From Dictyophora rubrovolvata (Eukaryota; Basidiomycota; Agaricomycetes; Phallales; Phallaceae): 64,000 nucleotides of DNA. This document shows, one piece after another, positions 15,067-39,149 of this stretch. Where the stretch lies: positions 1,922,001-1,986,000 of the forward strand of contig CP114117.1 in the NCBI GenBank assembly GCA_029959195.1, read 5' to 3'. How positions within the stretch are numbered: the first letter of the stretch is position 1; every line of letters starts with the position of its first letter. The notes under the pieces are model-generated. The model made no database searches, was not told where the DNA came from, and was given only the letters and a program-made list of their open reading frames with translations. Made by a program: the position numbers and the translations under genes.

Positions 15067-15392
15067 GTCCTCTCATCGCAGTTTCCAGCAGTGCAGTTCC
15101 AGCGACTTCATCCCCATGATTGAACCTGACACGACAGACGTGTTTTTGAATCATTTCTGTATATATTTCATAGTTTCAGTCATACTTCCCTATTTTATTT
15201 ATTTATTCATTCACAATGGAACCGGCTGGGATGGCGTGACGCGTAACTTCGCGTAACTTCAAAACGTTGCTTTAATTGTGTTATCTACTCAATCGGTGTC
15301 AGTTTGAGTTGCGCCTCGAAGACAAGGTATAAATATTTCTTTCAAATCAACTTTGTCCTGAAAGAAAGTATTCACGGGAAGAATGGTTCAGC
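15067..15392. promoter_or_regulatory. Intergenic 326 bp with direct repeat and MCB-like site
   Basis: Contains a T/A-rich run near 15194-15214 (TTTA/TTCA units) and a tandem GCGTAACTTC direct repeat at 15240-15259. The first unit overlaps ACGCGT, the Mlu I cell-cycle box sequence. Function is inference only. This region is upstream of the coiled-coil gene. Confidence 0.4.
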
Positions 15393-16334
15393 ATGAGTCT
15401 CCCATCCCCCAGCGTGATTAACCAGGCTCCTACCACGGTGGTACGCAATTTTGGGCAGGTCAAACTTACCTCAGAAAGCACACGTAATGCCAATGGTGCG
15501 TGTTCCTTCAATATAAAATCTCTCTCGAATTGACCCATGAAATTACGGGAGAAATATCCAACTTAGTAGAGCACCAGACCTTTCATAACACTCGGCCTTC
15601 TACTAATTCAACGACCAACGATCATGATGGGCCGCATATACAACATGTAAACGCCGTGACAGGCCTTGTAAGCTCTGTGATCCAGTAAGCCATTAAACTG
15701 GTCTTAAAATTGAATGAACTCCTCCTAATTATGGTAGAGATATCTCTAGGTACAGTTGACGAAAAGGATTGCAGCTGCATTGCACGATGTCAATCTTAAT
15801 GTTCTCAGGTGTCAGCTTCAGATGTGCGAAAATGAGCGGAAACTAGCAGATACGAAAGCAAAGCTTCAAAAAATTGAAGAATTGGCTGATTCTCTTGGAG
15901 AAACGAGCCCAACAACACTTCCTATCATAGTGAGGAATTTCTTTTGCTTCCTCCACATCAAATCACCTATTCCGACTTAGACTCCCCTTCTAAAGAAGAT
16001 GAGAGCTGAACGCCGTTCCCTCGAAATGAAGGTCGAGCGAGACATAAAAAAACTAACAGAAGCTTGGGAAGAAGCGTTGAATATTTTCCTCCGTGCTATT
16101 TGTGAACAGTTCGATAAAGAAGTGGAAGCCGGAACTGAATTCCTTTATCAAGAAACCCGTGTTTTCTTGGACTCTCTATCTAAAAAGTACACGGTTCCCA
16201 GTCAAAAATTTGCAAGCTCACCTTCTAAACCTTCTAATTCTCTCAGTCGGCGTCCTGATCCTGACGAAACACCTGGGCAGTCTCTGTTCCTAAAAGCATC
16301 GAGAAGAGCTGGCAGGAACAATGGTGGATCATAG
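15393..16334 (+). pseudogene. Coiled-coil protein gene cut at the inversion breakpoint (3' end replaced)
   Basis: Unrecognised protein. Exon 1 starts MSLPSPSVINQAPTTVV at 15393. Introns follow at about 15496-15552, 15669-15758 and 15929-15979 and leave one open frame. The middle is strongly helical and heptad-like (DTKAKLQKIEELADSL; RRSLEMKVERDIKKLTEAW), so a coiled coil is likely. The host sequence ends at 16286; the last 15 codons and stop (FLKASRRAGRNNGGS) are antisense FAN1 sequence inside the left arm. The complement of 36221-36069 continues the frame from 16286 with no gap, adding 50 codons that include a further helical stretch (RMQEQLDRQSEKIKYLLHQ). The present gene therefore looks like a 3'-truncated host gene with an accidental new tail. 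It may still be expressed. Its 3' end overlaps the FAN1 fragment antisense. Confidence 0.6.
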
Positions 16335-17410
16335 GTCGTGCTTGTTTGCATGTGTCAGACTCTGAAAACAGATTGACCATGAGAGTGATATAAGTGTACC
16401 TTCGAAAAAAAATGATGTTCAATCGATCGAGAATTTCTAATAGTTCGCTCCGTAACCTAACACAGCGGCCTGCTTCGTGAAATTTAATACCCTCAGGAAT
16501 CATGATTATCATACCTGTCTCCTTTAGTATCTGCCTTCTAAAGTATAACTGAGACAGCGACTCCTTTCTAGTACCTAAACAATATTGAGACTTGCTACGA
16601 AAAAATGCCGTCACAGTTGTTTGGTGATTGCAGTGTGAAATGATCTTCGGGATTATGATATCACGCTACGTAGAATATATTTAATCCATTATATATGACA
16701 AGGATGCTTATTTTCTCAAACTCTCACTGTTTGTCTTGGAAATATTATCCTCATTTCCTTTCCCATTCTTTTCAATCGTTCCAAAGAAAGAGAATGTAGC
16801 AAGTCAGATAAGCTAGCAGCATTTTCATCTTCGGCGAATGTGTAAGGCGGTCCATATGTACCTAGTAAACTGTTACCATAAAATAAATCGTGACGATCGA
16901 AGAAACATTACGTGAATCCTCCTCAGTCACAGTGAGGTCAATGAAGTTGGACGCGGATTCCCCTGGAATCGCGGATGGGCCGCAAAGTTGGTCAACCAGA
17001 CACGAAATTTTTTCTTTATCGCCTAGCTCTTTTCCATAGCTTTTTTCCAGAGAAGCCACTGTGTGCCATTTTTGCCGTTTACGCAAAGATAGCCGGATAA
17101 GAAGATAACGGGTAGTATCTGCAACCTGCTTTCAATTTGGATGAACGAGCTCTACAAAAAAGTTGCAAACTTGGAAGTGAGTGCAGGGCCTGCAGGTAAT
17201 TCAACTCTTGTTCGGTGAATAGATAGTTTTCTTTTTCCAAAACGATTGAATAGATATCTACGAAATTGGGTAAAAATATGGCACGCGTATTCACCAGAAT
17301 TCACCAGAAGACTTACGATCAAAGAGCTTGACATACAATGAATCAAGACGTTCCGTATATTCCTCCACTCTGCCCAGTTCTTGGTTTAGGCGCAGCGAGA
17401 GGTTCTCCAT
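16243..17410 (-). pseudogene. 5' fragment of FAN1 in the left arm
   Basis: Copy of the first 1.1 kb of the FAN1 gene at 38026. The start codon corresponds (17410) and the same introns can be read, giving LPNTTRYLLIRLSLRKRQK and SYGKELGDKEK. Arm homology stops at 16287. The frame runs 15 codons more into the neighbouring coiled-coil gene's antisense strand and stops at 16243. The nuclease half, including the VRR-NUC domain, is missing, so no FAN1 activity is possible. Two differences from the intact copy were seen here: 16324/39112 (synonymous) and 16670/38766 (intron). Transcription through it would be antisense to the 3' end of the coiled-coil gene over about 90 bp. Confidence 0.85.
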
Positions 17411-19214
17411 CTAACTCCACCCGCAAAGAATGGCTGCAAGAATGTTGTTATTACTATCAAAACCGTGTCTCAGTTTGGGTTCGCGTTCTGTAACGTCAGT
17501 GTCACAATCGGTCTATAAATACATTACAAGATAAAATATTACAAGACAAGATATACACAACTGAAAATAGGATCTACAGCCTTCGTCTTAAACTTTCATT
17601 ATCCCTCTTCAGCTGAACATTCTCTTCCGCAAGTGCTTTCAAATCGCGTGCGTGCTGGTCCATTAATAACCTTAGTTCACTCTGATGGACGGAGTAGAAC
17701 CCAGTCAGCAAGGAAACTTGAATCTCGGGCTGTGGTGGAATCATACCTTCCATGCTCGTCCCATTCTAAGGACGTCTAAATGCAATCCTTTTATATCTTC
17801 TCGCAATTCACTTCGACACTCGTTCAATGTTTCCATTAAAAGTGTATGCATTGATGTTTTGGAGAGACCGGCTTGACAAGATTCAGGTTGTATGTCTAAT
17901 GTAGGTTCTTCACCTGAGACTTCGGCGTCAGACAACGATTCCGTCAAGGCGTTTGGCTGTTTGGAGCGTGTACCCGTTTCAGCGACCATCCATCCCACTT
18001 GCTTCTCTTTCTTCTCAGTGGTCGAGATCCCCCATGCCTGCGTCGATCGGGATGCGTTATTTTTCGACTTATCTGGCTCAGAAGACACTACTTGATTATC
18101 ACTCGAGCCGGCAACAGACGTCGACTGATGCACATCGTGTGTCTTCAATGAATCAGATGGTTCCTTTATTTGTTGTTGTAAGTCGGGACTGCTTGATTTA
18201 CTGTCAGCTTTGCCGACTATCCTGGAGTTTATTGGTTCAATTCGGTAACGAGGCTTAGTTGCCAAAGTAATATTTGAAAGTGTTGTTCTGGTCTGAATGA
18301 TGGGACGTGAATTTGCCTGACTTCGTAGGACCGAGGTTGCGTCATTCTCGATGCTGGACATCCGAAGATGAGTCGGCTTAGACAGCTCCTTTATATGAAC
18401 ATTAACCTCAGCTACAGAAACGAATCAAATCTTATTATAGAGCGAATAAATGATGTAGAACTAACGTGGACACCTGAAAGGCATATCCGGCGTACCGTCT
18501 GATTCACCTGTCCTCAGGGCCGCGGAGAGAGTTGGAGAAGCGATTCTAGTCGAGTTTATTTTACTTGTCTGCGAACCGAATTCCACAGGACTCCTAGAAC
18601 CACTGTGCCGAGTAGAAAGTGTTGTATTTTTAAGTTCGACTAAGGGATGGCTCAATTTTGAAGCTGTTAATGATGTAGTATTTGGTTCGACTGGATGCCT
18701 TGTTTGTTTGATACGACGCTTTTGTCTGTGAGTATACTAAGAATATGTCTTTTAGAATGTTTATACTTTACCTGAATAGCAAGCGCAACGACGCGTTCTT
18801 CACCTCCATTGTCGTCTAGAGCAATCATCTGATCGTCTTCTTCAGCAGAACGCCATCCTTTCACGATGATTTTTCCGGACCCTGTCCCAAGAGCAATCGC
18901 AGTGCCATCTGAGGTAAAGTCCATTGCGGTGATGGGTGTATTCACACCGAGAACCTTTAACAATCTAAGGAAAGTGAATCATCCAACTTTTTGGCGAAAT
19001 AGACTATCACTTACGATCGATCTTTTTCCAGGTCGACGAGAGCAACTTGTCCGGAGCTAAAGGCCACCGCCAACAGAGGTTTACTGAATGGACTCGACAC
19101 TATAGCAACAATAAACGAGTTCACAGGTATTTCAGAAAATTTGATTGTTTTGATCGGATTAGAAGGGCGGGTAACATCGTAAATGGCAAATACCCTCCCA
19201 CAGCCAACGAGCAC
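16287..19214. repeat. Left arm of a 2928-bp inverted duplication
   Basis: Pairs with 36222-39149 in inverse orientation (left position = 55436 minus right position). Both arms are exactly 2928 bp. Differences seen: 16324, 16670, 18103, 18474 and 19011, all transitions, no indel, so about 99.8% identity. Homology ends sharply at both sides, though 9 of the 11 bases at 16280-16290 also match across the FAN1-side edge, which may be breakpoint microhomology. The arm covers the 5' part of FAN1, the 163-bp NEDD1-FAN1 gap and the 3' part of NEDD1. Confidence 0.95.
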
Positions 19215-19751
19215 CCGCGTGCGGTTGTGCGAGTGGAATGCACATACTAGTCTTTTCGCATTGCTAGTCGTTATCGGAAACCCTTTCAAAAGGGTCAACG
19301 AATTGTGATTCAAGTTATGAATGCATAGGGTCCCCGAAAGAGATGCGGAAGCAAGTAATGATCCGTCATTTGACAGAGAGAGGGAAACAATTGGACTCGA
19401 ATGGCCAATCAACGTGTTCGATACCTTGGGCTTCGTACCAAGCGAGAGAAGGTGGACACTTGGGCCTTGAGCAAAAATGACTGTGGATGTATCTCGGCAA
19501 AGCAGAATGGGCTGAAGGGTCTGCCCTTGAGGCGTAACGTATATCACCGTGTTCTCAGAGGATGGAGAAGAAGACAGGAAGGAATAAATTGTATCAACGG
19601 ATGCAATAAAAAAGGTAGAATTGTCAGGAGACCAAGCGATGGCTCGAGGTTTACTGTCCAAACGAATCCTTTTCAAGCCAAGTGTTGTTCGTTTGAAGGC
19701 AACATTGTCTGCGATGAAAAGCGCGGCATTTGATATTGCTAGTAAAGACAT
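17574..19751 (-). CDS. NEDD1/GCP-WD-like gamma-tubulin recruitment protein, complete copy
   Basis: NEDD1 proteins tie the gamma-tubulin ring complex to spindle poles and spindle microtubules: an N-terminal WD40 propeller and a C-terminal helical part that binds the complex. Seen: exon 1 (19751 to about 19013) codes WD40 blades (PRAIAWSPDNSTFFIASVD; SPIVSLSLSNDGSLLASAS; PLLAVAFSSGQVALVD), and exon 2 a further blade (TAMDFTSDGTAIALGTGSG). An S/T-rich linker follows. The C-terminus is helical: ETLNECRSELREDIKGLHLD, then after an intron SELRLLMDQHARDLKALAEE, ending with a heptad run to the stop at 17574. This C-terminal pattern (R-x3-HxDI-x-LH, then LL, then E-IE-L-EN-LR) is the NEDD1 signature. 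About 530 residues. Bases 17574-19214 lie in the duplicated arm; the first 537 bases of coding sequence are unique, so this is the only complete copy. Orthology is moderately firm; the blades are weak. Confidence 0.72.
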
Positions 19752-20101
19752 GAGCTTTTGAGGTGCGCACAGGAAAAAAATATACGCTGTGAACTGCGTA
19801 TAAAGAGATATTTCGTTCTTGGACGTTTTCTATATAGACTTCCTAGCTGTGGTGCAGGCGACGGGAATTGCTGAAGTTGACTTTGAAGTTTGAACGCGAC
19901 GCGCCAATCGACACGTGACTCGCGTCACAGGGAAAGGCCAAGAGAGGAATAACTCATTATTATACAGTCGAAAAGGGAATTAATGTGGTATATTGACTGA
20001 ATTTAAAAAGGAACAAGTCCGAGTACATCAAGAAAATTATCATTCCTGTTACGATACCACGAAAGACGATATGGGAAAGAAATTCAGTAGGGGGGTATTT
20101 T
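19752..20101. promoter_or_regulatory. Intergenic 350 bp: NEDD1 promoter and septin 3' end
   Basis: Contains a CACGTG E-box-like palindrome within a CG-rich stretch (about 19893-19928, including GACGCG and ACTCGCGT, loosely like cell-cycle boxes). No gene seen. Confidence 0.35.
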
Positions 20102-21435
20102 TTAGGCAGGAGGCACAGTAGGACGGGATGCGGAAGCATCCTTAAGAGCCAAAAGTTGCTGAGAGCGGAATGCTTCGTAATGAATTTGCGCGGTCGTTTC
20201 TATAAGATCTTGCAAGTGCGTCCTAAAGCAGCGTTAAAAGAATCACGGGATTATGCAAGTATTGCAGACCTAGTCAAGAAGTTTCTCAAATAAACAAATT
20301 CGCAGTGACTTTCATCTTCAACATTGATAACACCCCAACGAGTTTTTCGGCCGCGAACTGGCTTGCCGTCAATAGTCACATTCCTATCAGAACCAACAAC
20401 CGCAAAGGGAATCAATCTCTGGATAATCTGTAAGAAAGAGATAAAAGCAGGGAAGGGAAAAGAAACACCGACTCTGATTTGGTCATTTAGCTGCAGTTCC
20501 TCCTCATCCAACTCGTCGGTATCAAATGGATATAATCCAATATGTTGGTAGACAAGTTCAGCGCGGATCTTGAGTACTCAATTTCAGGTGGAGAGTCAAT
20601 TCAGTCAACAGGCCTGCAAACTGACCTTTTGTTTAAAGGCTTCTCTTTCCTCCAAGGTTAAGGAATCTGCTTTAGCAATCACGGGAACAACATTAACGAC
20701 CTCGGAAAGTTTTTTCATCACGATGATATCAATAGGGCGAAGGGAATGACCAGTAGGATTGATGAAATGTACAGCACAATGGATGCGAGTATCTTGAATA
20801 TACCGGTCCCGTTTCGCGGTTAACTCTTTGCGAAGATACGCGCTATGTTGGTCCTATAGCCGGGTAATTAATGTATGATTTGTCAAGTCAGAATAGAGCA
20901 TACTTTAATATATTTGATAATAGGATCCCAGCTAAAGAGCATGCTATCATTCATTTGATCATTTTTTGCGTGATGGTAACCTACCAATCTTCATTATTTA
21001 CTTGATCACCGTATCCGGGGGTATCGACAATGTTTAGCCTTAGTCTAACACCATTTTCGACTATGACTGAGCGTGGTGTCAGAAAACGCAAGCGAGAGTA
21101 CCATTTCTCTCTGAGAGAAACTTTACCATGAGACACTGCCTGGATGTCCGTAGTTTTCCTGGCTGGTTCGTCTGCTTCTAGACGACCTTTAGAATCAATT
21201 AAATGAGAGGCAAAGATAGTATTAATGAGAGTAGATTTTCCAAGGCCAGTTTGTCCTGTAAAGTCACCTCGATCACAAATAGCTCTTGTAGACTTTAGAC
21301 AGTGAGACACAGACCTACGACGATAACATTGAATTGGAAACCGCGCTTGAGAAGTTTGTGCTCTATTTGACGAGTAATAGAGTCAAACCCAACATAAGAC
21401 GAGGCACGAATTTCCTCAACAGCAGGAGTAGCCAT
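20102..21435 (-). CDS. Septin, Cdc10 type (copy 1)
   Basis: Septins are GTP-binding proteins that polymerise at septa, bud necks and hyphal tips. Seen in order: [20 protein letters not shown] leader and polybasic patch; P-loop [33 protein letters not shown] (G3); [49 protein letters not shown] (G4, AKAD); [56 protein letters not shown]. The end is short with no long coiled coil, which fits Cdc10 rather than Cdc3, Cdc11 or Cdc12. About eight introns; the start at 21435 begins MATPAVEEIRASS. A close paralogue with the same architecture lies at 50757-52140 on the same strand. Confidence 0.9.
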
Positions 21436-21598
21436 GGCAAACGAATGGGGGGGATAAGAAGAAGTGAGGATTTTTTAGGCTCTGGAAGCGTGACCGTCGC
21501 TTGATGTAACAGCCCGTCAGCCTCATTTGCCTACACACGCCCATACTCTTGGCGCCTAAATTCAACCTTCCCTTCTCTTCTGATCACTGAGGGCACAT

Positions 21599-22574
21599 AT
21601 GAATCGCCCTGTACAGTTCACCAAACCCAGCCTCAAACCCAAAACACACCATGGTTATTCAGTTGTCTTGTTTATTCTCGGCACTCTGTTACCACCATTA
21701 GGTATGGTGTATCCAGCCGTTTCTTCGTACTATAAATGACTGTGCATTACAGCGGTGGCCGCTCGCTTTGGGTTCGGTAAAGATTTCTTTATTAATCTCG
21801 TTTTAACAATTTGTGGCTACTTTCCAGGTAATCTCTCTCGTATATCATTTGCACACATGCTGACACGCATTGCTAGGCCACGGCCATAATTTCTACGTTC
21901 AGGTATAGAATGATCCTTCGATTCCCGTCATCTTGTCACCTGATGATATTGATTTAACGCAGAATATTCGTAACAATAAGAATCATCAGCGCACACCTAA
22001 ATGGGCAATTCGATACGGCTTGATCGACACAAGTGAGATAGAACGGAAGCAACGCAAGTCGCAATGGGCCAATCGATATAACGACAGATTGCCTCACTCT
22101 ACCCTGGAAGATCGTGAGGTAGAAGAGGGACAAAATCCGTCACGTTCTGTCGACTCGATCAATAGCGACACACAACGCCCTTCTGATCGCGCAGCCGGTT
22201 TATGGAATGAGACAGATGAGTCGTACTACGGGCGAGATGGCTCATCATCGAGCCTACAAAACGGCAGCTCCAAAGGCCGTTGGCACTATCCTACTAATTT
22301 CGATAATATGGACCCTCTGACTCTTCAGGATTCCGGCAAAGCGAAAAAGGATCGCTGGACCCGTACGGAGGACGCCAGAAGAGGGATCGGTCTCGAAGAT
22401 TCAGGGCGGCGAAAGAAGAAGAAGAAAAAGACCAGAGCCGTCGACAATAATTCTGATTTCATTAATAACAATCGCCAGAGTTTGGACTCATTTGGCCAAG
22501 CCGATGCTAGTCCCGGACAGCCCAATACCTCTACACAAGGAGAGGTCGGGGGCGAATTCGATCACGAGTTTTAA
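21599..22574 (+). CDS. Pmp3/UPF0057 small-membrane-protein domain with long basic tail
   Basis: Seen: MNRPVQFTKPSLKPKTHHGY leader, then two hydrophobic stretches split by introns (SVVLFILGTLLPPLAVAARF; GKDFFINLVLTICGYFPGH) followed by GHNFYVQN. This LPPLAV, then G-DFxINLxLTxxGYxPGHxHxxYV, is the UPF0057/Pmp3 signature, a plasma-membrane proteolipid linked to salt and cation tolerance. Canonical Pmp3 is about 55 residues. Here about 220 polar residues follow (IRNNKNHQRTPKWAIRYGL and a RRKKKKKKTR-type basic run at about 22408-22437), as in many filamentous-fungal members. The tail is predicted cytosolic and disordered; its role is unknown. Start at 21599 gives the only good leader; introns at about 21702-21751 and 21828-21875, and a third near 21903-21960. 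Confidence 0.8.
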
Positions 22575-22939
22575 TTTGCCTTTGTAAAGCGTTTATTAAC
22601 CTATTGTGTTATTTAGGAAAGTAACTATGATATTATATCTATTATATTCAATACCTTTGGACTATGGTGTCATTGTAGTTTGCGTCTGCCAACCAATTCC
22701 CACGGCGAACCGTCACATGCTTCTGGTTCTATACGACTGTGAAACTCTTATGAGATGGGTTTCTTTTATTCGATGATAAACCATATTCGATGCATCGACA
22801 AACAATGCCAGCGCATGCAGTTCGCCTATGCGTCCGCTTCTTTGACTAATAACTCAGCTGAAATGAGATGACGCTTGAGAACGTTGTAGTTTGGGTTATA
22901 TAAAAGACTTAGCAGATCGGTTCAATTAGTTCCCCAATC
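22575..22939. other. Intergenic 365 bp
   Basis: 3' region of the Pmp3-type gene and promoter of the PNGase A gene. TATATAAAA at about 22896-22904 lies 36-44 bp upstream of the next start codon and may be its TATA box. No other feature seen. Confidence 0.45.
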
Positions 22940-25483
22940 ATGCGGTTCTCAACGCTCCTGCTGTTTTCCGCCAGTACTCACATCTGTTTCACTCCTTGGA
23001 CAACTGCATCCCTTGTTGAGAGAGATCCCGAGGACAATAATACTTTACCTCTACTCGTTGATTTCCAGGTAGCACAGCCTCCCCCACTTCCGCAGGATGC
23101 CAAACAATGTACAATTCAAATCCTGGAGTAAGATTTGTTCAATAAACACGAGCAATCTCACGCATATATTTGTTCTCAGACGCACATTTGGAAACTCTTT
23201 TGGAGAGTACGTGTTTAAATTTTCTCATCGAAAAGGCGAAAAATACTCAAAGATGTTCTCGTAATGCACAGTCCAGAGGTCGTTCAGTATACGTAAGATT
23301 ATATGATTTTCTTTGTGTCTGAACATACACGTAACCGATCCACGTTGAAGACCGCCCACGGACTGTGGTGCTCCTGGGAGTTGGACAGGAATTAGTTTAA
23401 ATTGGACTGCTCATGCTAACGGAGTTTGTATCTTTTCCTTTGAAAAGAAGAGAAAAAAAGTGAACTGATTAATATGCAGACGCAATTTGATCGACTTAGT
23501 GCAATATCTTTCCACAATGTCGAAAGTAGAACGCAATTAACTTAGCTTTCAAACTAATACTTACGCCCTTTAGTATGGCGTACCTCGACTCCAGAACCTT
23601 CCGATGGCTTAGAAATAACTTGGACGTTTTTGAAAGATGTTACTCGATATACCCCGCTTTTCGCTAAAGCTGGGACGCTGATTCTGGATTTAAACAACTT
23701 GATAGAACCGGATGAAGGTCTGATTGGTGAATATGCTGGTGATTTCTTCTTCTTCTAAAGCCCTTCCGCATCAATTACAACAATCAATACACAGTTACCT
23801 TGAGTGCAACGTTTTTTGCTTCCGATAAACAACATCCTCCTGCAAAGACGGCAGATGCAATCATTCCCATATCCAATCTTTCCCCAAATATGGCGAATTA
23901 TGTTTCAGTCCCACCAGATTTTTCTGTGAGGAATAAATGCTATTGTCTTCTCCTTTAGGCGTCTCATTCAATTCATATGTAGCTCAATCAGACATTTCCT
24001 ATCAATACTATACAAGCATTTGCCGAACTATATGCTAGTGGGAACGGGAATGAAGAGTTTTGGGTTATTTTTTTTCTGTTTACGTACGCGATGTTTCACT
24101 TCTGACACCTCATTCGAAGTACTTCAATGCTGCCGATGAATTTTTCGACGATCTTCCTCCGGGCTTCACTTTCCCAGACGGCCCCTTCCGAGAGGTTCGT
24201 TTATTAGTAGATGGCCAGGTTGCTGGTGTGGCATATCCTTATGCGGTATTTTTCACAGGTGAAAAGCTGGTTTTCTCAGAAGTTTCGAGCTTGATTAACC
24301 ATTTATAAAGGTGCCATTGTCCCTCCTGCTTGGCGGTGAGTTATTTGTTTCTTTTTCCGGCATTCAACTTAAACGGTATCACAGGCCAATAACCTCTTAT
24401 GGCGCCTTGGACCTTCCAACTTATTATATCGACTTGACACCCTTTGTTCCCATGCTTGCTGATGGAAATCCTCATAATCTTACTTTGGACGTCGTTTCCG
24501 GAGAATCAAACCATACCATTAACCAAAATTGGTATGTTTTTTTTATGAGACAAAAAGATTCTTTTTTTAAAAAATCGCCAGGTTCGTTTCAGGAAACGTA
24601 CAGGTATATCGGTTTAAACCTGCCCAAAGTATTTTATTCTGACTAATAATATTCTATTTTCAAGGCCATAACAGATCCTTCTGGTAAACGAACTACTGGC
24701 AAAATTACCAAATACGAAGTTGGTCCTTTTGGCACCTCATCCGCTAAGGCTTCAATTGGCAACGGTGATATCAATATCACTGTTACTGCTGCGCGTAGTT
24801 TGCATATCGAGGCCGAAGTAGTCAGTGGAAGCGGAGAAACCAATCGTGTTGTTTGGCAACAGGACCTATCGTTCTCTAACACACAGTTTTATCTTGATGA
24901 CTTCGACGTCCAAAATTTAGTACAATCCAGTCGGGGAACTTCCTCATCAACACACAATGGGGTGACGGTTGTTCAAGACATTTTCGATTTCCCCGTTACA
25001 ATTGATCTTTCAGGAAATGCTACTACTAGTACGCCACTTGTACATGTGTCGCCATTAAAAATTGAATTCTCATTGCTCGACAGCTCTCTGCACGTTTGAC
25101 CATTCTTACATTAGGAATTTGATACCCAATCCAATTGTGACAGGAAGCACGATCAATGAACGCCAGTTCGCAAGTAAGTACGGAACTCTGTATCCAGTGG
25201 GTTTGTTTGACCGTCTAACATCTTTCTAGGCGGCTCTATTATCGAACTTTCTAACGGAGAACTAGCGGGAGGGGACAGTTCGAATAACAATACTTTCAGC
25301 TATGCTGACCTCGACGGAAACACCTTTACTCGAAGTGTGAATGCTTCAAACAATGTGATCCTGCTTGATCAACAAGGAGGCACTCTAGCTGGGGCCAGTC
25401 ATCATGGGACGAAGCTTTCACCCGAACAATTAGGATGGGTCGCTAAATTGCCTAATGGAAGAAATAAAGTCAAGTTAAATTGA
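22940..25483 (+). CDS. Secreted PNGase A-type peptide N4-asparagine amidase
   Basis: Family (PNGase A domain) members are secreted or vacuolar acid glycoamidases. Seen: signal-peptide-like start MRFSTLLLFSASTHICF; LPLLVDFQVAQPPPLPQDAK and the Cys-containing entry; then through several short introns WTGISLNWTAHANGTQFDRL, NVEVWRTSTPEP, GLEITWTFLKDVTRYTPLF, FREVRLLVDGQVAGVAYPY, FTGAIVPPAWRPITSYGALD, and LPTYYIDLTPFVPMLADGNP. The VWRTSTPEP and GGIxPxxWRPI blocks are characteristic. Many N-x-S/T sites suit a secreted protein. A further exon block (to 25483) encodes the conserved end with NNTFSYADLDGNTFTRSV. About ten introns, about 640 residues. Converges with the C1-THF synthase gene, 129 bp between stops. 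Unrelated by fold to PNG1 at 13631-15066. Confidence 0.87.
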
Positions 25484-25612
25484 TCTTAGCCGTACATATT
25501 GACACAAATACATGCACATAGCAAGCTGCAAATATAGATGACAGACTTGTATCGTGTTGAAACGATTAGTCATGTTCGTAACCCAGCGTTGATTAAAATT
25601 TTTATGAAGTCT

Positions 25613-28600: not shown

Positions 28601-29311
28601 AGACGCCTGTTGTTTCAATCAGCTTGATAACACCTGCGGGCGTACAGGGTGCAAACAAGGGAGAAGAGGCTTTAGAAGCTAGGTGACCGACATTATAGGC
28701 ATGGAATCTAAGATAGAGGATTCAGCATCAACATGCACAGCAGCACAGATAAGCGGAAGGGACAGACCCGTCGACATCCTTCTCCGGATTTACAGCTTCA
28801 GTAACTAATCTTTCTTGCTCGGAGGTCACGTGAGGACCTAACGGTAGCTGGACTAGGATTCCGCTGACAGCTTCGTCTGCATTGAGCTGTCTAACGATGG
28901 CAACGACCTCTTCGTATGTGGCTTCCAAGGGTAGAGTGATGTGCTTGAACCGTATGCCCACTTCTTCGGCGGCCTTGGCTTTCATTCGGACATATAGGGA
29001 CGAATCAGGCCGTTCACCAGCTTGTACTACTACAAGAGTTGGGCGGAACCGAGGGAAACGGGATTTTACATCTCGGATGCGATTTGCGATATCTTCCCGT
29101 ATTGATCTGTTTTGAGATAGAGAAATAAAGGATAGTAACCGTGAGCTGGTAAAATACAATTGCAGATGAATACAAACTTGGCGAGTGCACTCCCATCGAT
29201 GATTCTCGAACTCGTCGTCATCATGCGACAAAATCGTAACGCGTTGAATGTAGTCAATGGCAGATATCGCAGACGGTTCCGCCAAATTTCATGTCGTACG
29301 AGCGCTAACAT
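25613..29311 (-). CDS. C1-tetrahydrofolate synthase (dehydrogenase / cyclohydrolase / formyl-THF ligase)
   Basis: Trifunctional enzyme of one-carbon metabolism (yeast Ade3/Mis1), supplying 10-formyl-THF for purines. Seen: N-terminal FolD domain with [20 protein letters not shown] (first intron donor GTTTGT after ALA plus AA), [78 protein letters not shown]. The formyl-THF ligase domain has P-loop [97 protein letters not shown], and ends [18 protein letters not shown] at 25613. About 940 residues, full length. Two possible starts: 29311 ([17 protein letters not shown], Arg-rich) and an internal Met-Met at about 29224, next to IIDGSALAK. The longer form resembles a mitochondrial presequence, so dual targeting is possible. 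Confidence 0.93.
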
Positions 29312-29806
29312 TCAGTTGAGCGCACGTGAGCTCAGGGTCAATCGGAGTCGCAAGTTTGATAAGCTTTCTGAAAACTTGAAGAATAATGCAGTTACTGCGA
29401 GACAAGAGAAAAAAGGACGCCAAAATGAGGATGAATATTCACTGCTATATAAATAAAATGACGATGATGACGGCAGAGTCAGGCTTGTGAGATTGATTCT
29501 CCAGCCTAACACGTACAAGATCCACTAAAATTTAGCTCAGGTTTTACTTTTTTGCGTGCCGTGAAATTATTAGCGCGAGACAACTGCTAAAAATTGCCCA
29601 ACAATGCCGCCAGCTCAACGTCAAAGCCAACGGCGACTCTTCATTACTGGGAAAACTATGGGCGCTTATACGATTAGTAATCAGCATGCTGCGAAGCCGT
29701 CACCTGACCGTGACCGCGGTTGAAATTCCTATCACGTTGCTTCTGAGGCGCGCTCATTTCCTCGCAGATTCATCGTGCAAGTTTTGACTTCAATGTACTT
29801 TGGAAG
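29312..29806. other. Intergenic 495 bp, divergent promoters
   Basis: Between C1-THF synthase and the S/P-rich nuclear gene. Short open frames occur on both strands without any resemblance; nothing further seen. Confidence 0.45.
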
Positions 29807-32562
29807 ATGTCCCCCTCCACTCTGGCACTAACTTCTGATACAGACTCAGACTCCGAACCAAATACTACTCACGCGAATGTCTTCTGGGGGCATTTAAAAA
29901 CACCCGAGAAATCCAGGATCGACAATGACCCACCTCAAACCATTCTTAGGTCCAAGCTAACTGTCCTAGCACGGCCCAATGAGTCGCCTACTAACTTAAT
30001 GCGCGAAATTCCTCAGAACTTGAGCACTGTCGATGGCGAAAAAACAGGTATGTGTTCTTATCTGTCGACGATCGGTCACCCGTTTAGTTTTGCTATCACA
30101 TAAAGATCCCTCACAAGCCGCCTTCGCTGATTCAGGCCTTCAAGAGAAAGGCCGTAACCCTGGTGAGTTTTCACTAGAAGCTGTGCGTTCCCTTCTCATC
30201 ATTCTCCCAGAGTTAACGACCACTGCTTCGTCTGCAGTTTCAATCGTTGAGAATGCGAACGCCCTCGGCGTGAAAGAGCCCAGCCCTCACTCACCCATAC
30301 GGAGTCCTGAGAACGACCGGAAGAACGACAATGTCAATCTCACAGGCACTACGCCTCCTAATACAAGTGCTCCAGCCCCAGCCACCCCACCGAGTACTCG
30401 ACCAAGCGTCTCGAATATACATTCCTCTGAATTGGACCTCCAAACTACTCCGCGTGTTATCTCACCCGTTAAACCTACGCGTCAATCTCCCAACCCTTCG
30501 TCTTCGCACTCCACCTTCATCAAAGCATTGGACAAAACACCTGTCAAACCAGCAAATGGCCCTCCCCACTGTTTAGTCTCTCCAAGCACCCCACAGGTCG
30601 GCGACAACAGTATTCGGAAAGAGAGACGGATGAAGTTGAAAAATAATGAAGATCGAGGACGATTTCAATTGTTGTCTCTTAGTCCAGCCTCTACTAACGT
30701 ACTAAACCTAGTACAATCACCGCTTCGAAATGTCGACAATAAACTTACCATACCCCAGAGTCCCGTACAAAAAAAGGCGCAACGAATACTCGTTCCGGCA
30801 TTATCACGGTCTCCAGTTAAACCCTTTGGATTACTCCGTCTTCCATCTCCAGTTAAACTTGATGATCCTAATCGAATACCTGCCCGTCGAGTTCCCATTC
30901 CTCATAGTCCTTTACGAACGGTCCAAAATGATTCTCTTATTTACTCATCTGCACGTCGGATCCCAATCATCGGTGGCAATAAAAACATGGCTAACCATCC
31001 TGATACACCGAAACAGACTGCTGATATCTCCATGTCAACTCCGTTCGCGCCATCTGACCTCCTCGGACATTCCCATAATATTGTCTCTTCGACTAGTCCC
31101 CCAAAAAGAAGCACAGAGCTTGTTCCAAGCGCAGGACCTTTCACATCCTCCCAGAGGAGGTTAGACCCAACTCGAAGCGGCAGCGCCGCCAAAGCAGGGC
31201 CGTCTAGACTCCCTATACTATCCGCTCGATCTGTAACAATTCAACCCCCGTCGAATTCGTTGGCCGTTCGAAAAAGACTTGACCCGACGCCAGCCGCCAC
31301 AGTAGTACGTTGATTGATCCGTCTCAAGTCACATTATATCTGAAATTATGCAGCCTTCACAAATACCTTCTCCGGCCAAGCCGAAAACGGGGAATAATGC
31401 ATTCGCGCTTGTGTCTCAGACTCAAAACATATCACCAGAGTTGAAACGTAAACGGGCAGAAATCGAATCAGAAGATGAGCTCAACGAAAGACCGCATAAA
31501 CGAACAACTGCAGAGACGGGCCGGCCGCGAATAGAGATTTCACAAGGGACTACTGGGTCGATTATTCAAGGAACCTTGGGTATTACCCACGATCCTCCTA
31601 AACTAGCGAGCGATAAGATGGAAACGGACGAGCCAACTTCCTTAATAACAAAGGCAGAACCATCGGTAGTACCCAACTCACATCCAAGACGAACGTCGCG
31701 CGTTCGTAAATCAACTACAACACCTCTAAAAGCTCGAAGTCGGCCGTTGACTCAAACTAGTGCTCGGCCACTTTCCTCTCGCACAGACTCACCATCGCCG
31801 TCAAAATTGCATGCTAGGCCCCCATCGCGGCCACCTTCGAGAAGTGCTAGTCGTAGCGCGTATAATCTTGATATTTACCCCGATAATCCACGTCAGCTCC
31901 AATGGCTCACGTCACACAATACACAACGCAATCAAGAGTCCGTTGTCGAACTTGAACATCAAACCATCCGGAAATTCGGACATCGTCCTCCTAGTCCTAG
32001 CAGTAGGTTCCGCGTTGATGCAAAGAAGAGCCGCGAGGAACGAGAAGCCAGAGCAGAAAGACGTCAGCGACGAGATCGAAACAATGATGGTCTGATTTCT
32101 GACGTCACATCATGCGTCGAGGCTACTGCTTCCTCCTCCAACGTAACCAACCAACACAAGCACATGCGAGCACCCGGTGATGATGACGACTACGAAACAC
32201 CAGTCAAGAGTCAGTCACTGGATGGAGTTACTAAAATGGTTAAATGGAATAGAGACCTCCTCGCGACCTCTGGTTCCGAATCCTCTGAGCAACAAACCCG
32301 GCCGAAAGTTAAACTTAAGAGCTGTCTTTTACGGGAACCCACAGTAAGCGGTGACGACAACACTACTACGAATAGACCATTTGAAATTTTCGTTTTTGTT
32401 TTTTCTTTCTAGACATTAGCCCTTAATTTTCTTGGTAATGTGGCCCACGCAGATGAACCGCTTCCTGATGTGGTAAAAGAACACATCGTGATATCACGAT
32501 TTGTCTATGACGATGATATACAAGAAGAGTCCCCTCGTCGGTCAAAGAAGAAACTCGTATAA
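29807..32562 (+). CDS. Unrecognised S/P-rich, likely nuclear protein with repeated SPVK sites
   Basis: I do not recognise a family. Four exons join in frame: 29807 to about 30047, then 30109-31302 (junction codes EKTDPSQAAF), then from about 31352 (TPSQIPSPAKPK) to 32343, then 32413-32562 (TLALNFLGNVAHADE). About 840 residues, mostly disordered, rich in Ser, Pro, Thr, Arg. Repeated S/T-P-x-K/R motifs (ISPVKPT, KTPVKPA, RSPVKPF, PSPVKLD) match the cyclin-dependent-kinase consensus. Basic clusters (LKRKRAEIE, RPHKRTT, RRSKKKLV at the very end) look like nuclear localisation signals. A Glu/Arg-rich stretch (KKSREEREARAERRQRRDR) may be helical. Inferred: a nuclear, cell-cycle phosphorylated protein. 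No enzyme motif is visible. Confidence 0.65.
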
Positions 32563-32661
32563 ATTGGATCACATCTAAGTACACTTCTTACATATGTAAA
32601 TGGCACACTTAGCTAACGCTACCTACTTCTTTACTGTTTGTACAAGTTATCTATGTAATAT

Positions 32662-33902
32662 TTACGCCTTGGGTTGCCTGTAGTTTATGGTTACCGAAGC
32701 CTGGTTAACAGGTAGTATAAGGACATCAGCGATGTTCACGTGTGGTGGACGCGAGGCGGCCCAGACGATCTCTTCAGCGATATCGTGGCCGGTCACTGAA
32801 GTTTGTTGTAGTTAGTTCTGTATGTCAAGAAAAAACTGGACGAGTACGGATACGCAAAGACATACAAGGGTGTAGTCCGTCATATACTTTATTGGCAGCC
32901 GCTTTGTCCCCGCGGAATCGAACGAGTGAAAACTCTAAAAAGAAAGGAAGATTATGAGCATCCGTTTTTAAAGAATACAAGTCTAATCCTATTCACCTGT
33001 TTCGACCATTCCTGTCGTTATAGTACAATTTAGCTCACAGTTGTGAATTTTAGTTTCAGTCATACCTGGTAAGATTTGGGTTACGCGAATAGGCGTGGCG
33101 ACAAGCTCGCGACGAAGGGCACCATTGAATGCATCAACGCTAAAAGGGAAGGACGGAATTACATACATCGCGCCTCGCGGTGGAATTGCGTGAAGGAAAG
33201 AAAGGCACACACGCATGTTTAGTTGCACAATAAATGGAGCCACCTGCATATGTCTCTATTCCAGCAATTGAACCCAGATTGATAACATGGCCTGCATTTC
33301 GTTCCTTGAAGTCTATCATAAATGAATAAGGACAAGTCGAATATACGATATAGGGTGCCTCACGTCGGACCAAGATCTGAGTAATAGCAATGAGCCCAAG
33401 TACGTTGGTTCCAAACATGGCATCAATATCTGCTTCGGCGATGTCTCCTACTTTCTCTACACCATACACAAAGCCAGCATTGTTAACTAGAAAGAAAACA
33501 AACGTAAGACACATGTTGTGTAAGCCATTCCAATGGGATGAAAAACACACCCAGTATATCAATGTCCTTTAAGTGAGGAGGGATCTTGGACCATAGGTTG
33601 TTGACTGCTGTGCGATCGCTGATATCTAAGACGACTGATTCAAATACCCCGCCAGACTGCGAACCCCCTTCCTTGTGCGCAGAAACGCAAGCCTCTTTTA
33701 CTGCAGCTAGAGCCTCGGCTCTGCGTGCAAGCAGTATTACATTGGACCCGGCTTTGGCAAAAAGGACGGCTGTAGCCTAGTAGATCCGTCAATATCTGGC
33801 TTGGTCAAAGGGCCTGCGGAAACGTGCCTTGCCTATACCTGCGCTCGCACCCGTTACCAGAACAGTCTTTCCGGCGAGACGTGCACCACTGAAGATAGAC
33901 AT
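32662..33902 (-). CDS. Short-chain dehydrogenase, NADP 3-hydroxy acid dehydrogenase type (YMR226c-like)
   Basis: Classical SDR with Rossmann fold; yeast YMR226c oxidises L-allo-threonine and 3-hydroxy acids with NADP. Seen: MSIFSGARLAGKTVLVTGAS and GIGKATA (TGxxxGIG cofactor site, split by an intron near 33788-33816); FESVVLDISDRTAVNNLW; DIDILVNNAGFVYGVEKVGD (NNAG); NVLGLIAITQ; HVINLGSIAGIETYAGGS (catalytic Ser); YCATKHAVDAFNGALRRELV (Tyr and Lys of YxxxK); RVTQILPGMTETEFSLVRF. These blocks are conserved in the YMR226c group. About six short introns; about 280 residues. End at 32662. The Met at 33902 sits ideally before the first strand; an upstream open stretch to 34289 is not needed. Divergent from the SET gene, 258 bp between starts. 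Confidence 0.9.
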
Positions 33903-34160
33903 TCTGTGTAGCGAGAAGAACGTCGATGAGGAACGAGGACGATGTCGACCCTTAGTAATGTAGCAATTACCTTCTTGGAAAGTTACTTGACCACGGTCTG
34001 TGGATTGGTAGAGAAATAAATGCGCTCTTCCAAAACATGCTGCATGTTCGTCCGATGCCCCGGTCGGCAGCCTGAGAATACAACCACCATCCGGCCCGCC
34101 GTCACCCGAGTTATCGCTCAAAGCTAATGACTGCTCTCCCTTCCAGCACATCATCATCTT

Positions 34161-35859
34161 ATGGCAAGTTCTACAGACGATAATGCAATCGATGTCGGCT
34201 GGGAAAATCTTATATCTTGGCTGGAGACATTCGACCCAGATATCCAGAAAAACCTTTGCGTTTACAGTAAAATAATTCCAGGTTGGCACTGGACATCATG
34301 ATGTTGCTCAAAGCCATGCTTTGTTAATTCATCCATGTTTAGGAGCCGGAAGAGGTCTATTCGTTAACAGAGACGTGGCCGTAAGTAAATAGTATACGAA
34401 TTCATCCTAGATCGCGTATGTTCCACGATAATCGAACCAGCCCGATACACCCTTGTTCTCCGTCCCAAGTGCTGCCTACTTGAACGCTTCCACGCTGGCC
34501 AAGCTCTATATAAACTCCGACAATGACCACAAATTATCTGCAGTGCAGTTGATATCATTGCATCTATACATCCATAGACCTGACACACAAAACAATATCG
34601 AACAATCTAGTCACCATGCATATAGTCCATACCTTGCGATTCTACCCCAAAATTTCGCCAGTCATCCTTTGTCATGGCTTGCATCGAATGTTCATTCAAC
34701 ACTGTTAGCCTGCATGCCCCCGGTAGCTCAGAAGAATCTCCACAAAAGGTTCGATCAATTTCAACAGGACTGGAAGGCAGTCTCTGCATACCTAGTAAGG
34801 CAATGCGCTCCAATGTCTGCCTGACAATCAACTAGTTCTTCAGAATTACTTGTCGCAAATATCTTCCGAACCCATTCCGTCTTCGTTTGAAACCTGGAAG
34901 TGCACAGCGAACAAGGAAGCAGAACTAGAAAGATATCTCTGGGCCTGGCTTAATGGTTGGTACTATCAAACTCGTCAAACACGGACTGGTACTAATCAGA
35001 ATCACCTAATAACTAAGTTAATACCCGCTGTTTCTATATGTCGTTATGTCCCTCCAGATCAGACCCCGATAATATTACCTTGTGTCCTCTGGCTGACCTC
35101 GCAAATCATAGCTCTCTCGAACAGCAAACCACTACCAAAACCCCCGTTCCCACTTTTTATTCCCCTTCAACATCAGCCCTGCGAAAAGACAACGAGATTT
35201 ATCTAAAATACGGCTCACACAGTAATTCAACGCTTTTCACGGAGTACGGTTTTGTTGAAAAAGGTTTCCCGAATGGCGGCCAAGTTGATGTAGAAGATGT
35301 CATAAAGGCTCGGTTCGAAGCTCTCGGAGATCTAGGGATATGGATGAGATCTCTCCTTGAAGATACCGGCTTTTGGGGGTAATAAGTATTTTTTATGTCG
35401 TCGTTTTTTTGGGATTTGGACCTGATATTAGTTGTATCTTTAAACAGTGATTGGTTTTTATACGACTTTCCTCCACCAGCGTCCCCTTCTTATCGGATCC
35501 TCCCTGCCTTGCGGCTTCTTCAGCTTTCTTGCACCCTTTCGCGTGATATCATGCTGACTCGCGATCCCTTTACTTCTTCAAAGGATCTACAAGCATGGAA
35601 GGATACTATATTTGGAGAAAATGAAGTGGTCTCCCAATCAAATGAGAGTGCCGTTTGGAACTGTATCTCTTCCATTTGTGAATTGATTAGCACTCGTGCT
35701 CGTACAGGTTTGCAAGCTTTACAAAAGGCTCAACCTACTACTGGCGAGGCTTTCCACGAATGGCAAAACCATGCCGTGGAGTGTATTCGACAACTTTGGC
35801 TGGAGGAATTGTGCGTTGCAGAGGCGGTCATCCAGACTATCAAATCTGGAGAAGTCTGA
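34161..35859 (+). CDS. SET-domain protein, Rkm/SETD3-like lysine methyltransferase family
   Basis: Likely cytosolic or nuclear protein-lysine methyltransferase; substrates in this group include ribosomal and elongation-factor proteins. Seen: MASSTDDNAIDVGWENLISW; after a short intron the SET N-half GRGLFVNRDVAPDTPLFSVP; a long helical insert (SWLASNVHSTLLACMPP; WKAVSAYLVRQ); then SET C-half with LCPLADLANHSSLEQQ (NHS, S-adenosylmethionine contact), EIYLKYGSHSNSTLFTEYGF (the conserved Gly-Ser/Asn and EYGF-type block), and a Rubisco-LSMT-type helical C-terminal part (RILPALRLLQLSCTL). Introns near 34270, 34381-34438, 34800, 34960-35060 and 35381-35450. Which lysine substrate it has cannot be told. 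In the inferred ancestral order this gene stood next to the broken coiled-coil gene. Confidence 0.82.
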
Positions 35860-36068
35860 TACGGTTCTCTTAATAAACATTAAAATCGTACATCTTCCCT
35901 TCTGACCACACAGATATGCGGAACTGTCAGTTCGGTTACATATATATCTGGCGAGACACAACTTCGAAAATTCGAAGTGAAGGAGGAGGAATTATAGCAT
36001 TCTATGAATATAAATTCTGCATCTATCCGCAACTCCCTGATCAAAACTAGGAAGTTAATGGAAGGAAA

Positions 36069-36221
36069 TTACTGAGGGCTTACAAATTCACTCTGGTGCA
36101 ACAAATACTTAATTTTTTCAGACTGTCTGTCGAGTTGTTCTTGCATTCTAGAGAGTGTGTCCATAAAATCTATGGATTGGCGGTGTGTATTGAAACGGTT
36201 GTGAAAACACACAGTCCTTGT
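36069..36221 (-). pseudogene. Orphan 3' exon of the coiled-coil gene
   Basis: On the minus strand, bases 36221 to 36069 form 50 open codons and a stop (TRTVCFHNRF at the start; RMQEQLDRQSEKIKYLLHQ later). They follow in phase from base 16286 of the truncated coiled-coil gene, and the sequence has the same helical, charged character. It now abuts the right arm and has no promoter or start of its own. Minus-strand reading through the arm gives only meaningless antisense NEDD1. I infer that this is the displaced C-terminus. Whether an intron lies at the old junction cannot be seen. Confidence 0.6.
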
Positions 36222-37862
36222 GTGCTCGTTGGCTGTGGGAGGGTATTTGCCATTTACGATGTTACCCGCCCTTCTAATCCGATCAAAACAATCAAATTTT
36301 CTGAAATACCTGTGAACTCGTTTATTGTTGCTATAGTGTCGAGTCCATTCAGTAAACCTCTGTTGGCGGTGGCCTTTAGCTCCGGACAAGTTGCTCTCGT
36401 CGACCTGGAAAAAGATCGATCGTAGGTGATAGTCTATTTCGCCAAAAAGTTGGATGATTCACTTTCCTTAGATTGTTAAAGGTTCTCGGTGTGAATACAC
36501 CCATCACCGCAATGGACTTTACCTCAGATGGCACTGCGATTGCTCTTGGGACAGGGTCCGGAAAAATCATCGTGAAAGGATGGCGTTCTGCTGAAGAAGA
36601 CGATCAGATGATTGCTCTAGACGACAATGGAGGTGAAGAACGCGTCGTTGCGCTTGCTATTCAGGTAAAGTATAAACATTCTAAAAGACATATTCTTAGT
36701 ATACTCACAGACAAAAGCGTCGTATCAAACAAACAAGGCATCCAGTCGAACCAAATACTACATCATTAACAGCTTCAAAATTGAGCCATCCCTTAGTCGA
36801 ACTTAAAAATACAACACTTTCTACTCGGCACAGTGGTTCTAGGAGTCCTGTGGAATTCGGTTCGCAGACAAGTAAAATAAACTCGACTAGAATCGCTTCT
36901 CCAACTCTCTCCGCGGCCCTGAGGACAGGTGAATCAGACGGTACGCCGGATATGCCTTTCAAGTGTCCACGTTAGTTCTACATCATTTATTCGCTCTATA
37001 ATAAGATTTGATTCGTTTCTGTAGCTGAGGTTAATGTTCATATAAAGGAGCTGTCTAAGCCGACTCATCTTCGGATGTCCAGCATCGAGAATGACGCAAC
37101 CTCGGTCCTACGAAGTCAGGCAAATTCACGTCCCATCATTCAGACCAGAACAACACTTTCAAATATTACTTTGGCAACTAAGCCTCGTTACCGAATTGAA
37201 CCAATAAACTCCAGGATAGTCGGCAAAGCTGACAGTAAATCAAGCAGTCCCGACTTACAACAACAAATAAAGGAACCATCTGATTCATTGAAGACACACG
37301 ATGTGCATCAGTCGACGTCTGTTGCCGGCTCGGGTGATAATCAAGTAGTGTCTTCTGAGCCAGATAAGTCGAAAAATAACGCATCCCGATCGACGCAGGC
37401 ATGGGGGATCTCGACCACTGAGAAGAAAGAGAAGCAAGTGGGATGGATGGTCGCTGAAACGGGTACACGCTCCAAACAGCCAAACGCCTTGACGGAATCG
37501 TTGTCTGACGCCGAAGTCTCAGGTGAAGAACCTACATTAGACATACAACCTGAATCTTGTCAAGCCGGTCTCTCCAAAACATCAATGCATACACTTTTAA
37601 TGGAAACATTGAACGAGTGTCGAAGTGAATTGCGAGAAGATATAAAAGGATTGCATTTAGACGTCCTTAGAATGGGACGAGCATGGAAGGTATGATTCCA
37701 CCACAGCCCGAGATTCAAGTTTCCTTGCTGACTGGGTTCTACTCCGTCCATCAGAGTGAACTAAGGTTATTAATGGACCAGCACGCACGCGATTTGAAAG
37801 CACTTGCGGAAGAGAATGTTCAGCTGAAGAGGGATAATGAAAGTTTAAGACGAAGGCTGTAG
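36222..37862 (+). pseudogene. 5'-truncated NEDD1 copy in the right arm
   Basis: Carries the 3' part of the NEDD1-like gene with all its introns: the last WD40 blades, the S/T-rich linker, and the C-terminal helices to the stop at 37862. It lacks the promoter and about the first 179 codons. By chance an ATG at 36096 opens a frame through 42 codons derived from antisense of the orphan exon and runs in phase into the NEDD1 codons, so a chimeric protein with half a propeller and an intact gamma-tubulin-binding-type tail is conceivable. Coding differences from the complete copy: Ser to Gly at 37333 and Arg to Lys at 36962. The open frames are still undamaged, so the duplication is recent. Confidence 0.8.
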
Positions 37863-39149
37863 ATCCTATTTTCAGTTGTGTATATCTTGTCTTGTAATAT
37901 TTTATCTTGTAATGTATTTATAGACCGATTGTGACACTGACGTTACAGAACGCGAACCCAAACTGAGACACGGTTTTGATAGTAATAACAACATTCTTGC
38001 AGCCATTCTTTGCGGGTGGAGTTAGATGGAGAACCTCTCGCTGCGCCTAAACCAAGAACTGGGCAGAGTGGAGGAATATACGGAACGTCTTGATTCATTG
38101 TATGTCAAGCTCTTTGATCGTAAGTCTTCTGGTGAATTCTGGTGAATACGCGTGCCATATTTTTACCCAATTTCGTAGATATCTATTCAATCGTTTTGGA
38201 AAAAGAAAACTATCTATTCACCGAACAAGAGTTGAATTACCTGCAGGCCCTGCACTCACTTCCAAGTTTGCAACTTTTTTGTAGAGCTCGTTCATCCAAA
38301 TTGAAAGCAGGTTGCAGATACTACCCGTTATCTTCTTATCCGGCTATCTTTGCGTAAACGGCAAAAATGGCACACAGTGGCTTCTCTGGAAAAAAGCTAT
38401 GGAAAAGAGCTAGGCGATAAAGAAAAAATTTCGTGTCTGGTTGACCAACTTTGCGGCCCATCCGCGATTCCAGGGGAATCCGCGTCCAACTTCATTGACC
38501 TCACTGTGACTGAGGAGGATTCACGTAATGTTTCTTCGATCGTCACGATTTATTTTATGGTAACAGTTTACTAGGTACATATGGACCGCCTTACACATTC
38601 GCCGAAGATGAAAATGCTGCTAGCTTATCTGACTTGCTACATTCTCTTTCTTTGGAACGATTGAAAAGAATGGGAAAGGAAATGAGGATAATATTTCCAA
38701 GACAAACAGTGAGAGTTTGAGAAAATAAGCATCCTTGTCATATATAATGGATTAAATATATTCTATGTAGCGTGATATCATAATCCCGAAGATCATTTCA
38801 CACTGCAATCACCAAACAACTGTGACGGCATTTTTTCGTAGCAAGTCTCAATATTGTTTAGGTACTAGAAAGGAGTCGCTGTCTCAGTTATACTTTAGAA
38901 GGCAGATACTAAAGGAGACAGGTATGATAATCATGATTCCTGAGGGTATTAAATTTCACGAAGCAGGCCGCTGTGTTAGGTTACGGAGCGAACTATTAGA
39001 AATTCTCGATCGATTGAACATCATTTTTTTTCGAAGGTACACTTATATCACTCTCATGGTCAATCTGTTTTCAGAGTCTGACACATGCAAACAAGCACGA
39101 CCTATGATCCATCATTGTTCCTGCCAGCTCTTCTCGATGCTTTTAGGAA
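36222..39149. repeat. Right arm of the 2928-bp inverted duplication
   Basis: Inverse partner of 16287-19214. Starts within the NEDD1 WD40 codons VLVGCGRVFAIYDV and ends within FAN1 at the codons for SMLLG. The differences on this side are at 39112 (T), 38766 (T), 37333 (G), 36962 (A) and 36425 (G). The 36425 change turns the intron start GTAAGT into GTAGGT. Confidence 0.95.

Follow-up and report, generated by a model that had tools for sequence, protein, structure and literature searches.

A 64000-bp stretch of the genome of the mushroom Dictyophora rubrovolvata (GenBank assembly GCA_029959195.1, contig CP114117.1, positions 1,922,001 to 1,986,000 of the forward strand; GC content, 44.6%; zero N), hereafter the window, carries an inversion whose break interval was duplicated; a 2928-bp interval shared by a NEDD1-like gene and its neighbor FAN1 is present in opposite directions at the two ends of the flipped segment. 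This reading of the locus is well supported. We denote the left flank L, the arm D, the spacer S, and the right flank R, giving a present order of L-D-S-D'-R, with the following components (window positions):

Left arm (D), 16287-19214, plus strand: 2928 bp, containing a FAN1 5' stub (17410 down to 16287), a 163-bp gap, and the NEDD1 3' part.
Right arm (D'), 36222-39149, minus strand: inverse copy of the left arm, containing the NEDD1 3' part, the 163-bp gap, and the FAN1 5' part.
Spacer (S), 19215-36221, minus strand: 17007 bp; reading frames across its boundaries suggest that the ancestral orientation was the reverse of the present one.
New join L|D, 16286-16287: zero microhomology.
New join S|D', 36221-36222: zero microhomology.

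A BLASTN comparison of the window with itself (word size 11, E values up to 1e-3) recovered the arm pair and one diverged septin gene pair, and nothing else. Both arms are 2928 bp long and align ungapped with zero indels and five mismatches, all of them transitions (left/right positions 16324/39112, 16670/38766, 18103/37333, 18474/36962, and 19011/36425), which corresponds to a divergence of 0.17% (5/2928 sites) and confirms the equal-length inverse arms and five transitions described in a first-pass annotation of this DNA. The arms end flush, the base adjoining each end differs between the copies, and both joins lack microhomology, so there is no extended homology at either of them; these features are observed directly. 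Within the window the duplicated interval is otherwise single copy, inverted, and located at both ends of the flipped segment. Apart from the arms themselves, the self-comparison turned up no repeat at any of the breaks, genome-wide copies being outside its reach and no transposon library having been searched; on the scale of the window, it gives no sign of a transposon-mediated inversion. As for a motif common to the break sites, one 8-mer occurs near two of them and is absent from the joins themselves, and a rough estimate puts the number of 8-mer matches expected by chance over the four comparisons at about one-half.

Gene models were built with a simple spliced-gene finder, and the NEDD1 3' end and FAN1 were corrected by eye. 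Short introns and the gene content are in keeping with a mushroom. Each of the two genes is represented by one complete and one partial copy:

NEDD1-like gene, intact, 17574-19751, minus strand: 632-aa model whose first large exon (19015-19751) crosses 19214|19215 unbroken.
NEDD1 copy, truncated, 36222-37862, plus strand: residues 180-632 of the model, without the gene start and about half of the propeller.
FAN1 gene, complete, 38026-40924, plus strand: runs on across 39149|39150, with uncertain exons between about 39030 and 39150.
FAN1 5' stub, 16287-17410, minus strand: about 260-280 residues, without TPR and VRR-NUC matches.

The NEDD1 model has WD40 and beta-propeller domain matches and aligns with PDB chains named NEDD1 (9qvm_W, E value of 1.8e-7; 9i8m_U, E value of 6.5e-6), with eight chains of other names outscoring 9qvm_W. 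FAN1 has a VRR_NUC match (E value of 1.3e-25) and a FAN1_TPR match barely over its cutoff (24.4 versus 24 bits), and it aligns with structure 9cma_A (E value of 1.1e-44) in a single stretch, residues 149-696 of the model, that spans both sides of 39149; the protein used for these domain and structure searches contained a splicing error of a few residues near 39040-39100, where two overlapping frames were strung together. A scripted re-splicing gave an open path over 38026-40924 (727 letters including the stop, none internal) whose splice acceptor, at 39146, falls within the arm by three bases; by eye we prefer an exon at 39096-39442 that crosses the boundary (acceptor AAG). Under both splice models the 5' part of FAN1 lies within the arm and the remainder in the right flank. 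The first-pass annotation had placed a 163-bp gap between the two genes and had found NEDD1 whole only on the left and FAN1 whole only on the right; the former is borne out by the stop codon of NEDD1 at 37860-37862 and the start codon of FAN1 at 38026, and the latter by the gene models and the domain and structure matches.

NEDD1 extends across 19214 and FAN1 across 39149, which marks both boundaries as old and 16286|16287 and 36221|36222 as the new joins. The boundaries of the duplicate therefore mark two distinct junction points, and each split gene is whole at one end. Both genes are whole with one copy of D in the order L-S'-D'-R, which we infer to have been that of the ancestor, and in that order 16286 would once have adjoined the reverse complement of 36221. 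Genes on either side of this putative ancestral junction are as follows:

Coiled-coil gene, 15216-16334, plus strand: cut at 16286, with its last 15 codons now arm derived; the 5' end is uncertain (the gene finder splits the model).
Putative lost 3' end of the coiled-coil gene, 36069-36221, minus strand: 50 codons plus a stop, in frame once joined to 16286.
SET-type (Rubisco-LSMT-like) gene, 34161-35859, plus strand: ends 362 bp before the new join; probable ancestral convergent neighbor of the coiled-coil gene.

The coiled-coil gene, which was absent from the split genes listed in the first-pass annotation, has zero Pfam matches up to an E value of 0.1; the two Pfam matches of the SET gene are both below the curated cutoff (substrate-binding domain, 20.9/21.6 bits; SET, 14.3/22.4 bits). 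When the flanks are re-joined, with 16286 placed against reverse-complemented 36221, the frame of the coiled-coil gene (open from 15981) gains 50 codons that include a heptad-like stretch and ends at a stop at 36069-36071, with the remaining two frames open for 16 and 23 codons. The observed coil score is reached before a stop at 28 of 6000 random window positions, and at 23 of 6000 with at least 50 codons as well, by a test that was picked after the sequence had been seen. This post hoc choice weighs against the re-joined frame, as do several further results: the length of the extension is unremarkable, 15% of 127085 window positions (both strands) being open as long; its codon log-odds of -6.7 is the best of six frames, yet places it in the bottom quarter among 2813 open frames of 150 nt (median, -0.7); and the gene finder, given the joined sequence, carries the gene over the join but splices it to another end. 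The re-joined coiled-coil frame thus appears to give fair but not conclusive support to the ancestral order, and it is the weakest of the three frames.

Several simple histories are rejected. A plain duplication, by reasoning, could not yield a whole NEDD1 at one end together with a whole FAN1 at the opposite end, and a clean inversion does not accommodate two new joins that sit at different points of the interval. Fold-back inverted duplications have a short spacer and symmetric flanks; a fold-back palindrome is rejected here by the 17007-bp spacer and the differing flanks of the arms.

Staggered breaks are the best single explanation for the pattern, although unproved. The ancestor would have carried the coiled-coil gene, the SET and SDR genes, the rest of the spacer, a septin gene, NEDD1, and FAN1, in that order, with one copy of the 2928-bp interval. 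At one end a clean break would have fallen within the 3' part of the coiled-coil gene, and the other end would have been broken twice, in NEDD1 and again 2928 bp away in FAN1, whether by breaks offset between sister chromatids or by offset nicks in a single chromatid. Reversed re-joining of the segment via blunt end joining would then place the interval at both ends in opposite directions, with NEDD1 and FAN1 each keeping one complete copy and the coiled-coil gene losing its final ~50 codons. Excerpts of PMC7584159 explain that the inverted duplications produced by staggered breaks, whether these fall on one sister chromatid or on two, are confined to the inverted state, that the one- and two-chromatid versions are indistinguishable by pattern, and that the chromatid version has been favored given the length to be unwound. 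Both the single event and the chemistry of the breaks are what we infer from the pattern, and we regard a single ~20-kb inversion, with one clean break, one staggered 2928-bp break, and blunt re-joining, as probable, if modestly so. The zero microhomology at the joins only mildly favors end joining because it is common by chance too.

Further considerations weigh against this explanation. The locus is known here from one chromosome arrangement, the inverted one, and no uninverted chromosome was seen; a septin query against prokaryotic contigs and a NEDD1 query against viral contigs recovered no relative, a result that has no bearing on fungi. The pattern alone does not tell staggered breaks apart from replication-based repair, nor from a duplication followed by a later flip. 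Of the interpretation given in the first-pass annotation, the duplicated-interval inversion and the ancestral order agree with the three frames (NEDD1 across 19214, FAN1 across 39149, and the coiled-coil rejoin), but staggered breakage as the sole mechanism is unproved.

A history in two steps, in which a clean break in the coiled-coil gene first received an inverted copy of the 2928-bp interval and recombination between the arms later flipped the spacer, would by reasoning yield an identical product with identical joins. Arms of 2.9 kb and 99.8% identity should recombine well; spacer inversion between inverted repeats has been proposed in Drosophila subobscura (excerpts of PMC7584159), and a study of herring uses the term "toggling" for inversion that recurs between inverted duplications at the flanks (excerpts of PMC11499932). 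We nevertheless consider this history unlikely, as it requires two events and a templated 2.9-kb insertion from ~17 kb away.

We rank next, and as rather unlikely, a single replication-based repair event, in which a stalled or broken fork would switch template and copy the interval backwards, with end joining to follow and no staggered breaks. According to the excerpts of PMC7584159, replication-based repair can leave the same footprint, and such duplications may record repair and not staggered breakage. The folding of the break sites lends this slight support, on which we place little weight: in a DNA-fold test of five stretches against 400 random 80-mers, two of the three old break sites (16247-16286 joined to reversed 36182-36221, and 19175-19254) were in the most stable 3% (0.032 and 0.030), the third (39110-39189) was unremarkable (0.75), and the two new joins were at 0.068 each. 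Against this history, template switching is generally said to leave some microhomology, and both joins here have none.

An assembly artifact, or a chimeric assembly that combines two nuclei or two haplotypes, would be compatible with a structure known here from one assembly, but two separate joins that fit one inversion, agreement among three gene frames, and arm flanks that differ where those of a fold-back chimera would be symmetric make this the least probable of the readings that we considered, and a highly improbable one.

The age of the inversion is a separate matter. The first-pass annotation had called it fresh; the inversion stands, but its recency is not established, since gene conversion between the arms or preexisting allelic differences would break the clock, and either could also explain the 0.17% divergence. 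Such allelic differences could have come in with the participation of two homologues, as in the "chromosome model" of PMC7584159 (excerpts). Arm identity alone is a poor clock. By gene model, the five differences, which are unpolarized, comprise one NEDD1 coding site, one FAN1 coding site, one NEDD1 splice donor +4 site, and two intronic sites. The donor +4 difference (19011/36425) reads GTAAGT in the intact NEDD1 copy and GTAGGT in the truncated one, a difference weakly suggestive of relaxed constraint on the latter.

With its 3' part present in both arms, NEDD1 would retain one complete copy in either spacer orientation, as would FAN1 on the right; flipping by recombination between the arms should therefore be tolerated. 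Such recombination would restore the orientation of the spacer with NEDD1 and FAN1 complete, and both orientations could coexist. A full two-way switch, with frequent arm recombination, arm identity kept by conversion, both orientations maintained in the population because NEDD1 and FAN1 are whole in each, and a truncated NEDD1 copy expressed with an acquired role, strikes us as very unlikely.

The septin pair recovered in the self-comparison consists of two minus-strand paralogues, one in the spacer (20102-21435) and one beyond the right arm (50757-52140), with 77% protein identity (253/330 aligned); in the proposed ancestor, they would point in opposite directions. The left arm is flanked by a gene at 13631-15066, which has a weak, below-cutoff Rad4 transglutaminase-like match (18.6/27 bits) and which may be PNG1-like, and by a PNGase A gene at 22940-25483 (E value of 8.5e-93). 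Perhaps two unrelated kinds of peptide-N-glycanase lie around this arm, and their placement is probably a coincidence.

Small inversions whose ends record their origin have been documented in flies. A clean fungal case, with joins that lack microhomology, exact arms, and a broken gene with matchable halves, makes the origin of fungal inversions testable at the base level. The locus also illustrates that an inversion can split a gene pair while sparing both of its genes, here NEDD1 and FAN1, and cut a third, here the coiled-coil gene.

The matches listed from open-licence literature included no mushroom inversion described as arising from staggered breaks and none dealing with the NEDD1-FAN1 pair, in line with the first-pass statement that no description of such an inversion at this locus in a mushroom was known. 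The comparisons that follow draw on excerpts of the papers cited. The closest parallels are in flies. In the D. subobscura inversions O8, E1, E9, E3, E12, and O3, one breakpoint interval is duplicated in inverted orientation at both ends of the segment, as it is here, and this has been explained by staggered breaks (PMC5080602); in those flies the uninverted arrangement is known, whereas the present fungal case is known from the inverted arrangement alone. Inversion 2q of D. mojavensis carries two duplicated intervals, roughly 1 and 4.3 kb in length, and a 5'-truncated copy of CG1208 without its first exon (PMC3355041), and it shares with our locus a kilobase-scale duplicated interval and a second, 5'-truncated gene copy (here NEDD1); both of its breakpoints are staggered, whereas one would be here, and the truncated fly copy was proposed as a new gene. 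Among mushrooms, the 140-kb mating-type inversion of Agaricus bisporus var. burnettii likewise splits a gene at one breakpoint, but no inverted duplication of the break interval is reported in the excerpts of that study (PMC8305134). In the fungus Zymoseptoria tritici, one counting method puts the share of inverted duplications among rearrangements at 4.9%, with no base-level inversion mechanism given in the excerpts (PMC8192914). Fold-back inverted duplications in yeast also yield inverted duplicated DNA (PMC7467729, PMC10622511); unlike that type, the present locus has a 17-kb spacer and differing flanks. The kind of rearrangement is therefore already known, and the D. rubrovolvata locus is a new, clean example of it.

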